64,000 bases of DNA from NCBI GenBank assembly GCA_022870745.1, contig CP085323.1, positions 2,294,001 through 2,358,000 on the forward strand. Reading direction: 5' to 3'. Below are positions 34,703 through 37,379 of this stretch, piece by piece. The notes beneath the pieces were generated by a model. That model did not search any database. It saw only the letters and a list, made by a program, of their open reading frames with translations, and was not told the DNA's origin. The position numbers and the translations under genes were made by a program. Position 1 is the first letter of the stretch, and each line of letters opens with the position of its first letter. This stretch comes from Silvibacterium acidisoli (GTDB lineage Bacteria > Acidobacteriota > Terriglobia > Terriglobales > Acidobacteriaceae).

Positions 34703-35587
34703 TTAGTTCTTGCGTCCGCCTGAGGGGCGCGTGCGCTGCAACTCGCGATAGAGTTCGCTTTTTGAAACTCCGCGTTCCTTTGCGATCCGTTTCAGTGCGG
34801 CCATCTCGTCTAACCCTTCGGCGCGGGCCAGTTCAGCGATGCGTTCCGTGAGCGGTAGTTCGGCACTCTGCTGGCCCACGGCCAAGGGCAGCGCCTGCAC
34901 CAGCAGAACAATCTCTCCCCGAATACGTTCGCGGCTGCCAAGCTGTTCGCGCACTTCACTCACGGAACCTCGCAGGAACTCTTCATGGAGCTTGGTGAGC
35001 TCGCGTGCAACGACGACGTGGCATGCCGGTCCCCACACGTATTCGATGTCCTCAAGCGTTTCAGCAATGCGATGCGGAGCTTCGTAAAAGACCAGCGTCT
35101 GCTCGCCGGAAATCGCGTCACGCATCTGCTCGAGCTGGGTGCGTCTTGCTCCAGGCTTGGGTGGGAGAAAACCAGCGAAGAGAAAATGCTCGGTGTTCAG
35201 TCCGGATGCGACCAGTGCGCTCAGCGCTGCATTGGCGCCAGGAATGGGATAAACCGCAATGCCCGCTTCAATGGCAGCTTTTGTCAGGAACATGCCCGGA
35301 TCGCAGATACCCGGCATGCCGGCATCGGAGACGACGGCGATGCGCGCTCCCTGCTTCAGATCCGCAACGATGGAAGCCGAACGGTCAGCCTCGTTGAACT
35401 CGTACAGGCTAAGCGTGGGCGTGTTGATTTCGAAGTGATTCAGCAGCTTCTGTGTCTGGCGCGTGTCTTCGCAGGCGATGCGATCGGCGGAGCGCAATAC
35501 ACGCAGGGCGCGGTAGGTGATGTCTTCGAGATTGCCGATGGGTGTGGCTACGAGATACAGCCCTGGGGCAAGAGAGGTCTCCTGCAT
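34703..35587 (-). CDS. rsmI: 16S rRNA (cytidine1402-2'-O)-methyltransferase
   Basis: A 294-residue SPOUT-unrelated (tetrapyrrole methylase fold) enzyme. The N-terminal GLYLVATPIGNLEDITYRAL, the CEDTRQTQKLLNHF motif and ALVASGLNTEHFLFAGFLP are diagnostic. It methylates the ribose of C1402 in the decoding centre. The C-terminus carries a small helical extension, RIAKERGVSKSELYRELQ. Its ATG follows the stop of the upstream M50-CBS gene by three bases, so translation is probably coupled. Confidence 0.96.
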   Translation of the reverse strand: MQETSLAPGLYLVATPIGNLEDITYRALRVLRSADRIACEDTRQTQKLLNHFEINTPTLSLYEFNEADRSASIVADLKQGARIAVVSDAGMPGICDPGMFLTKAAIEAGIAVYPIPGANAALSALVASGLNTEHFLFAGFLPPKPGARRTQLEQMRDAISGEQTLVFYEAPHRIAETLEDIEYVWGPACHVVVARELTKLHEEFLRGSVSEVREQLGSRERIRGEIVLLVQALPLAVGQQSAELPLTERIAELARAEGLDEMAALKRIAKERGVSKSELYRELQRTRPSGGRKN

Positions 35588-35590
35588 GGC

Positions 35591-36727
35591 TTAATTTTCC
35601 CGTTCGAAGCGGCGATGCTCGGCCAGCAACCCCATACTGTTGCTCAGGTTCTGCCAGGTAACGATGCCCACGATGCGGCCTTCGACGGCCACCGGAACCA
35701 GCGCCATGCGTCCGCCGGCAATGCGGCGAATCATCAGCCCGAGCGAGTCGTCGGGTGCAGCTACCTGGAAGGTCCGCACCATGACCGACTGCACGTAGCC
35801 GTTGCCGCTGTTGCGCAGTGCGGCAAGAATACTCTGCTTCGAGACGACACCGACGAGATTGCCGCCGCGCACCACGGGAAACTCGTCCTGCAGACTATGG
35901 ATGGCCCTGTACAAAGCATCGGAGAGTGTGTCGGAAGGAGAGAGCGTCGAGAACTCGGTGAGCATCACGTCCTTCATGCGGACCGTCTCTACCACTGACT
36001 GGAACATGACGCCCTGGTCTTCGAGTTGCGCTCCAACGAAGATGAAGAAGCCACCCATGATGAGCCATGGTGTCAGTCCGGAAGCCGTTCCATTGCCCGG
36101 GACCGCCAGCAGCGCAAGGCCCGCGAGCATGACGAGCAGGCCGAAGCCCTGGCTGATTCCGGAGACGGCGCGCGTGGCCTGTGCGGATCCACGTGTCTGC
36201 GAGAAGTACGCACGCAGCAGGCGTCCTGCATCGAGCGGATACGCCGGCAGGCAGTGCAATGCCGCCAGCATCAGGCTGAACCAAACCGTCGAGCGAATCA
36301 GGTGATGCGGCGTGACCAGCGGATGGGCTGACAGCGGAACGGCCGACGAGGCTCCTGCGATGAGTGCTGCCACGACAGCGGCAAACGCAACGTTGGCCAG
36401 CGGGCCTGCAAGCGCAAGCGCACGCTGGGTATTGCCCTCGACCGCGCGCTCGGCGCTTTCCGGTGTCGAATAGGAGAAGAGTCCTCCGATAGGCAGCAGG
36501 AGAATGCTGCGAAGCTGGAGCCCGTGGTACGCCGCAGCGATCAGGCGAGCTAACTCGCGCACAAAGACGGCAAGCAACAGCAGGCCCCACATGATGATGC
36601 CGCGCCACGCGCCCAGTCCGTCAACATTCGCGGTGAGCAGGCAGAAACCGAGCAGCAGGAAGAAGAACGTGTGGATGCGCAGGTCGATTCCGAACCAGCG
36701 TCCTAATGGCAGTGACCAGCCTCGCAT
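35591..36727 (-). CDS. Site-2 protease (M50)-CBS family membrane protein with degenerate zinc motif
   Basis: A 378-residue protein: six hydrophobic segments (about residues 15-245) and a CBS-domain pair (about 248-378, MLTEFSTLSPSDTLSDAL and SVMVRTFQVAAPDDSL). The fold follows M50 proteases: GGLFSYS, LAGPLANVAFA and LPAYPLDAGRLLRA with the third zinc ligand D166. But the HExxH position reads R57-E-L-A-R61, so both zinc-binding histidines are arginine, and the conserved Asn before LPA is His. It is probably proteolytically inactive. The ATG at 36727 is chosen because the preceding 69 residues are not hydrophobic and run into the rsmD divergent promoter. It is coupled to rsmI. Confidence 0.82.
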   Translation of the reverse strand: MRGWSLPLGRWFGIDLRIHTFFFLLLGFCLLTANVDGLGAWRGIIMWGLLLLAVFVRELARLIAAAYHGLQLRSILLLPIGGLFSYSTPESAERAVEGNTQRALALAGPLANVAFAAVVAALIAGASSAVPLSAHPLVTPHHLIRSTVWFSLMLAALHCLPAYPLDAGRLLRAYFSQTRGSAQATRAVSGISQGFGLLVMLAGLALLAVPGNGTASGLTPWLIMGGFFIFVGAQLEDQGVMFQSVVETVRMKDVMLTEFSTLSPSDTLSDALYRAIHSLQDEFPVVRGGNLVGVVSKQSILAALRNSGNGYVQSVMVRTFQVAAPDDSLGLMIRRIAGGRMALVPVAVEGRIVGIVTWQNLSNSMGLLAEHRRFEREN

Positions 36728-36815
36728 CGTGCTTTTCGATCCTTCCTTTCCGCTCGTCCTATTGTAGTGGTTCGGATCGAATCGATGTGACCGTGTCGCT
36801 TGGTACCATAACCGG

Positions 36816-37379
36816 ATGCGCGTGATTGCCGGTGAATATCGTTCCCGTCCCCTTGCTGCACCGAAAGGACTCGATACCCGCCCGACCAGCGACCGCCTGC
36901 GCGAAACGCTTTTCAACGTACTTGCTCCGCGCATCGAGGGATCGGTTTTTCTCGATCTTTACGCAGGCTCGGGCGCTGTCGGTATCGAGGCCATCAGCCG
37001 GGGAGCAGCCGAGACAATATTCGTAGAAGAGGCTCCATCGGCCCTCAAGGCAATCCGCGGCAATCTTTCCTCTCTGGGCATTCGTGGCGGCTATGCCCTT
37101 GAAGCTCGCAAGGTTATTGCAGCGGTGAAGCGGCTTGCTGCGGCTTCCCGCGCCGCCGACGTTATCTTCCTCGATCCGCCCTATGCTGACGACGATGCGT
37201 ATGATTCCGTTCTGCAACTGTTCGCCGGTGAGTGCTCGGCGCTGCTTGCTGCTGACGGCATCGTGATCGCCGAGCATCTGCGCAAGCGCGAGCTGAATGA
37301 GGCTTATGGAGCGCTGGCTCGTTATCGCGTGCTGCAGCAGGGCGACGCGGCATTGAGCTTTTTCAGAAGACAAACTTAG
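36816..37379 (+). CDS. rsmD: 16S rRNA (guanine966-N2)-methyltransferase
   Basis: A 187-residue SAM-dependent methyltransferase. It begins MRVIAGEYRSRPLAAPKG and has RPTSDRLRETLFNVL, the SAM motif FLDLYAGSGAVGIEA and the catalytic DPPY at residues 120-123, all typical of RsmD. It methylates G966 of 16S rRNA in the small subunit. Its stop codon overlaps that of the convergent minus-strand gene by a few bases. Confidence 0.95.
   Translation: MRVIAGEYRSRPLAAPKGLDTRPTSDRLRETLFNVLAPRIEGSVFLDLYAGSGAVGIEAISRGAAETIFVEEAPSALKAIRGNLSSLGIRGGYALEARKVIAAVKRLAAASRAADVIFLDPPYADDDAYDSVLQLFAGECSALLAADGIVIAEHLRKRELNEAYGALARYRVLQQGDAALSFFRRQT

Follow-up and report, generated by a model that had tools for sequence, protein, structure and literature searches.

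RExxR in place of HExxH: a probable site-2 pseudoprotease with a CBS pair in the Acidobacteriaceae

How should a site-2 protease (S2P) gene be read when its product carries arginine at the positions of both zinc histidines? The question is raised by a gene of Silvibacterium acidisoli (Acidobacteriaceae) within a stretch of 64,000 nucleotides (contig CP085323.1, positions 2,294,001 to 2,358,000), which is called the window here. It may be a lone changed copy on its way to decay, or one of many conserved genes for a protein that has lost its proteolytic activity, and the two readings make different predictions for its relatives.

The locus and the fold of its product

The initial annotation had described an S2P-CBS protein in which HExxH is changed to RELAR. 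This was borne out: CGC is the codon both at 57 (window 36557-36559) and at 61 (36545-36547), read as GCG on the + strand, E58 and D166 are present, and in a profile search the segment VRELARL aligned to HELGH of the Methanocaldococcus jannaschii S2P (3b4r, E 3.8e-42). The profile for this match comprised the window protein and 19 relatives, ten rows having RExxR and ten HExxH. The features of the locus are as follows.

35591..36727, - strand: probable RExxR pseudo-site-2 protease with a C-terminal CBS pair, 378 aa (Pfam, AlphaFold2 model, structure match)
36545..36559, - strand: R57-E58-L59-A60-R61 at the HExxH position (motif read, clade conservation)
36230..36232, - strand: D166 (in LDAG), where the third zinc ligand sits; members of the HExxH clade mostly have DGG
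36455..36514, - strand: residues 72-91, LRSILLLPIGGLFSYSTPES, a strand-turn-strand following the helix of the motif, with the adjoining stretch
35618..35983, - strand: CBS pair, residues 249-370
34703..35587, - strand: rsmI, 16S rRNA (cytidine(1402)-2'-O)-methyltransferase (TIGR00096, E 1.3e-76, over the cut-off)
36816..37379, + strand: rsmD, 16S rRNA (guanine(966)-N(2))-methyltransferase, divergent (TIGR00095, E 5.6e-40, over the cut-off)
36728..36815, no strand: spacer of 88 bases separating the divergent genes, with their presumed promoters

Upstream of the start the minus-strand frame meets no stop as far as 36934, which lies within the divergent rsmD gene, but the alignment with homologues begins only at the M at 36727.

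Pfam recognised Peptidase_M50 (PF02163) in the window protein with 43.6 bits (E 2.8e-11; curated cut-off 27.2) and a CBS match over its curated cut-off (E 1.7e-13); no NCBIfam model scored over its cut-off for this protein. Peptidase_M50 was also matched, at E <= 0.01, by 90 of 90 members of the clade with arginine at position 57 (the R clade, see below), and a PDZ family was listed by Pfam neither for these 90 nor for the window protein. In the accessible text of a review of bacterial S2Ps, group III is defined by the presence of a CBS domain and the absence of a PDZ domain (PMC10202637). With CBS and without PDZ, the window protein has the architecture of this group. The HExxH of active enzymes is replaced in it by RELAR; the Asp of the LDG motif is present.

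The AlphaFold2 model of the window protein (alignment A2, 90 rows; mean pLDDT 89.7) places the motif on a helix of residues 40-67, and a helix of residues 166-179 starts with D166. When compared by VIA-align its best match among solved structures was 3b4r_B (Z 22.8, rmsd 3.2, 214 aligned), in a ranking whose rows past 3b4r_B are CBS chains, so that the membrane part was hardly compared with other folds. An HExxH control model (alignment A3, 56 rows; pLDDT 87.5) gave Z 24.9 and rmsd 2.5 over 206 aligned against the same chain. The S2P transmembrane core is thus kept in the predicted model. M. jannaschii MJ0392 (3b4r) and Bacillus subtilis SpoIVFB (8vjl) have the same S2P core fold, the Asp of the LDG helix and a C-terminal CBS, which is described for both proteins (PMC11486902). 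The window protein differs from both in having Arg at the two zinc His positions and LDAG for DGG.

In the same model the CBS pair resembled AcuB, MJ0922 and CBSX2 chains (Z 17.6-17.9), so its fold is like that of nucleotide-binding CBS pairs. We take the CBS nucleotide motif to be G-h-x-[ST]-x-x-[DN], with an acidic residue expected in the first motif. At the corresponding position 299 of CBS1 the commonest residues are R, S and G in the R clade and K, R and S in the HExxH clade, none of them acidic, and in CBS2 N360 is found in 90% of the R clade and 100% of the HExxH clade. The nucleotide sensing proposed in the initial annotation appears somewhat weakened by these residues. If binding exists, the residues of its site would seem to have remained unchanged when the R motif arose. 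The PDB matches also included the CBS chains 9e6q_3, presumably from a ribosome context, and 9znf_4; at least one of the two is from an archaeal ribosome complex, and the matches probably reflect the general CBS fold. The CBS domain of SpoIVFB from B. subtilis is reported to bind ATP in vitro, and not to be strictly required for processing in vivo (PMC6242693).

Distribution and origin of the arginine motif

A homologue was detected at E <= 1e-20 in 376 of the 398 genomes of the family. Among 250 homologous loci (L001-L230 and L235-L254, some being one gene from two collections) the motif was RE..R in 161 and HE..H in 75, seven of the latter being distant outgroup rows. The 161 of 250 is not a prevalence, many of these loci having been picked by similarity to the window protein and the set having drawn on 277 relatives cut to the best 80, a choice biased towards the R clade. 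Rarer forms in the same loci were RE..H (3), QE..R (3), HE..R (3), HQ..L (2), HE..Q (2) and RQ..Q (1). Counted by genus code and leaving aside three outgroup genera, the 71 genera of the family with a sequence read comprised 24 with R57, 44 with HExxH, two with the other lesions HELVQ and HQLML, and the genus g63, which is considered below.

Within the genus of the window all nine genomes read contained R57, E58, R61 and D166, each with one match, of the R type. Together with the presence of R57 in 24 genera, this gives good support to a conserved pseudoprotease over a lone changed copy, the comparison by which the initial annotation had proposed to judge the gene. Among the named species in the R clade, a large group of soil Acidobacteria, are Silvibacterium bohemicum, Acidipila rosea and Occallatibacter savannae. 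A search of the phylum matched 114 of 297 genomes at E <= 1e-25, 31 in the family of the window and 83 outside it. In all 20 loci read from these 83 genomes the motif was HExxH with DGG and RExxR was found in none; the nearest other family likewise showed HExxH with DGG (5/5 loci).

In a tree calculated without the motif columns the 44 R57 rows formed one clade (100/100), requiring one state change, and this clade was found in all 200 bootstrap trees counted. Its sister was genus g63 (99/92). This main tree held 89 representatives, the long-branched L190 being left out and five of the six g63 loci included; in a quick tree of 83 representatives, with a single g63 row, the sister position had an SH-aLRT of 89. 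The next branches were the genera g8 and g32 with HExxH and DGG (84/88, weaker), followed by other HExxH genera. The six g63 loci read have HEAAR or QE(T/V)AR, with Ala at 166. R61 is therefore common to the R clade and its sister genus, and R57 is confined to the R clade. The simplest order of events, by parsimony applied by eye, would begin with H61R before g63 and the R clade parted; H57R would then have arisen in the R clade, and D166A in g63.

The window's genome contains two further M50 genes, both with HExxH, belonging to other subfamilies and located elsewhere: one of RseP type (HEFGH, LDGG; RseP model, E 7.6e-89), the other short (HEAAH, LDGS). The idea that this genome might also have an HExxH member of the window protein's own family was rejected, the single family match being of the R type. 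Since the genome has two further HExxH M50 genes besides its one match to the RExxR family, general S2P proteolysis is presumably intact. Another type of M50 gene (N-L-[LI]-P-[GA]-G-Q-LDGG) was present in 20 of 20 sampled HExxH genomes vs 3 of 20 from the R clade, as judged in these 40 genomes by a PF02163 stretch of 64.7-81.2 bits, the type being taken from six loci read (L304-L309). It would seem that a further intramembrane protease has disappeared from most of the R lineage as well.

Conservation and gene neighbourhood

After clustering at 90% identity (proteins of at least 330 residues) the R57 group had R57 in 106/106 members, E58 in 105, R61 in 104 and D166 in 102. Conservation of a RELAR-type motif among the homologues, which the initial annotation had proposed to check, is thus evident, RExxR being complete in 104 of the 106. 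The 56 clustered HExxH members all have H, E, H and D at these positions. Five different Arg codons are used at position 57 (CGC 69, CGG 15, CGT 14, CGA 5, AGG 3) and five at position 61. Because the codons at 57 vary, it is the residue that is held and not the DNA. Position 59 varies freely in the R clade, its commonest residue reaching 26%, and over residues 1-240 the commonest residue of the median position accounts for 65%; only 14 of these 240 positions reach 98%, R57, E58 and R61 among them. The R-E-R triad is under strong purifying selection in the R clade, and its conservation excludes a chance origin of RExxR.

For the membrane part, residues 1-240, the R clade had a median dN/dS of 0.135 (the first 400 of its 1172 pairs, 392 usable), close to the 0.120 of the HExxH clade (250 pairs, 224 usable). 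For the CBS part the medians were 0.077 and 0.041, the R clade being somewhat freer. What is found, then, is the loss of catalytic residues conserved throughout a lineage in a predicted fold kept under selection, as would be expected of a pseudoprotease.

Some departures from the pattern were seen. In the g73 loci read (L190/L246, L243-L245), which have long branches, D166 is gone and R57, E58 and R61 are kept. Inside the R clade His is back at 61 in one subgroup (REVGH, L184-L186), and one genome has RQSAQ with Q at 58 and 61 (L170). Zinc ligands were lost separately in two single genomes of the HExxH clade, giving HELVQ (L022/L249) and HQLML (L017/L248).

For the neighbour counts each different gene sequence was taken once and needed a flank of at least 1.2 kb downstream or 0.9 kb upstream. 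Divergent rsmD lies upstream in 127/130 R-clade, 57/60 HExxH and 5/5 g63 loci, and in 0/7 loci of the outgroup. This shared neighbour identifies the R and HExxH genes of the family as orthologues at one place. Such HExxH orthologues (e.g. L015) have the same CBS motif residues and about 40-49% identity to the window protein (rows of alignment A1); they differ in the intact HExxH, in having mostly DGG, and in that no rsmI was found downstream in 59/60.

The three-base gap to rsmI given in the initial annotation was confirmed, the stop codon lying at 35591-35593 and the ATG of rsmI beginning at 35587. The coupling is nearly confined to the R clade: rsmI follows on the same strand in 113/122 R-clade loci (94 within 100 bases), but in only 1/60 HExxH and 0/6 g63 loci. 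In the nine R-clade loci without rsmI in the flank covered, RExxR is still present. It might be thought that so close an association points to a joint function. However, the R clade is set apart from its sister by the gain of rsmI as well as by R57, which were probably one event, and for this reason the linkage says little on function. No paper naming both rsmI and a site-2 protease was found in a literature coverage outside which most subscription journals lie.

What the altered protein may do

We consider it likely that the window protein, which belongs to the CBS-type (group III) S2P family, has been maintained as a protein without proteolytic activity. Two Arg would be unable to hold the catalytic zinc as two His do, so that no cutting by the S2P mechanism is to be expected. 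An explanation for the retention of the triad may lie in the balance of charges. The charges of Glu and Asp are balanced by Zn2+ in HExxH enzymes and could be balanced by two Arg in RExxR proteins: two guanidinium groups (+2) would replace Zn2+ (+2) against E58 and D166, which would leave in the water-accessible core an ion-pair cluster with neither metal nor net charge. The Arg pair may in this way be a structural replacement which keeps the S2P cavity folded. For SpoIVFB it is reported that E44Q within HExxH abolishes activity and that water enters the catalytic region in simulations (PMC11486902).

If His is counted as uncharged, the net charge of positions 57/58/61/166 is zero for RERD (156 rows), RQQD (1), HERA (3) and QERA (3). 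The balance fails in g73 (RERT, RERP and RER-; five rows, +1) and in REHD (three rows, -1). Parts of the putative cluster can apparently be lost, as REHD, RQQD and the g73 sequences suggest. E58, which is kept throughout, could also serve another chemistry; this and the weaker constraint on the CBS part in the R clade count against the proposed reading.

By analogy with known pseudoproteases our best guess for the role is a scaffold or gate for a membrane partner. It might bind the transmembrane segment of the partner, perhaps helped by the changed loop after LPIGG, and the cytoplasmic CBS pair might tune or anchor it. In the second half of the loop the commonest residues of the R clade are Y86, A87, P89 and E90, the HExxH clade has D or E at 87, and the window protein itself has S87. 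A changed loop would fit a changed partner; the R clade differs from the HExxH clade at many positions besides the loop, and because the clade arose once, only one event underlies its association with rsmI and with the loop. Taken furthest, the proposal is that the clade turned a metalloprotease into a metal-free receptor, two Arg taking over from Zn2+ at equal total charge with Glu and Asp as counter-ions, that its stages survive in living relatives (HExxH with Asp; HExxR or QExxR without it in the sister genus; RExxR with Asp), and that a new role with a membrane partner was acquired in the gene pair with rsmI. We put this fuller version forward tentatively, as a possibility that may well not hold.

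Proteins that have kept a membrane protease fold without its activity are known from elsewhere. Arabidopsis EGY3 is a plant S2P pseudoprotease in which the zinc motif is absent and which is reported to act without proteolysis (PMC10978774); it differs in being a chloroplast protein, and the accessible text of the same source mentions neither CBS nor Arg for His. The iRhoms have likewise lost the catalytic residues, kept the fold and taken on a regulatory role (PMC3149277), but they belong to the rhomboid serine protease family and to animals. The 2023 review of bacterial S2Ps states that all S2Ps contain HExxH, and in its accessible text the word pseudoprotease is absent (PMC10202637); in that of a review of inactive metallopeptidases the terms M50, site-2 and S2P never occur (PMC11266112). 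A bacterial S2P pseudoprotease was not found in the open literature, a coverage without most subscription journals and as such weak evidence of absence. The His-to-Arg clade, its half-converted sister and the HExxH orthologues at the same locus form a natural series for residue-by-residue tests which bears on the loss of catalysis and the gain of a new role. They also carry a warning, since a Peptidase_M50 match alone is no ground for labelling RExxR genes as metalloproteases.

A special case of the maintained pseudoprotease, its odds overlapping with those of the general reading so that the two need not sum to one, is a regulatory decoy, which would bind and hold back what the other S2Ps of the genome, RseP or the short M50, cleave or associate with. 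Both of these are kept in the window's genome, and iRhoms, as inactive rhomboids, are described as inhibitors of rhomboid-dependent signalling (PMC3149277). The M50 paralogues belong however to other subfamilies and lie elsewhere in the genome, no link with them was found, and the further M50 type is the rarer in the sampled R-clade genomes. We regard a decoy as unlikely.

It could also be argued that the site is new rather than dead, R57, R61 and E58 forming an anion- or headgroup-binding site, or another non-zinc catalytic site, in the old S2P cavity. To carry three charged residues in a membrane helix is costly if they serve no purpose. The conservation of R57, E58 and R61 slightly exceeds that of D166, in whose absence they persist in g73. 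Yet a structural ion-pair cluster accounts equally well for the conservation, and no family with such a site was found, the solved S2P relatives being named as zinc metalloproteases or SpoIVFB. A new site is accordingly an improbable explanation in our judgement.

Very unlikely is a membrane-anchored CBS protein of ribosome biology tied to rsmD and rsmI, in which the protease domain serves only as an anchor. The suggestion draws on the neighbours (rsmD in both clades, rsmI in the R clade), on the CBS modules described in archaeal ribosome hibernation factors (PMC13324472) and on the chains from ribosome complexes among the PDB matches (9znf_4 and, presumably, 9e6q_3). Against this, rsmD and rsmI are housekeeping genes, the 9/122 loci without rsmI retain RExxR, the CBS matches are general to the fold, and an anchor would not need R-E-R.

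Gene decay, with the motif of an unneeded protease drifting, is hardly credible and is rejected together with sequencing error, as the motif is conserved across many genomes: the HELVQ and HQLML lesions indicate that the active site is dispensable at times, but R57 is kept in 106/106 with varied codons, dN/dS is about 0.13 and no internal stop occurred among the matches listed.

Two minor observations concern individual genomes. The copies of genus g72 in G218 and G161 have an internal TGA and two separate frames, respectively, and are possibly broken genes or assembly errors. The draft genome G187 has two R-type copies, 70% (L038) and 58% (L198) identical to the window protein, and is possibly a mixed bin.
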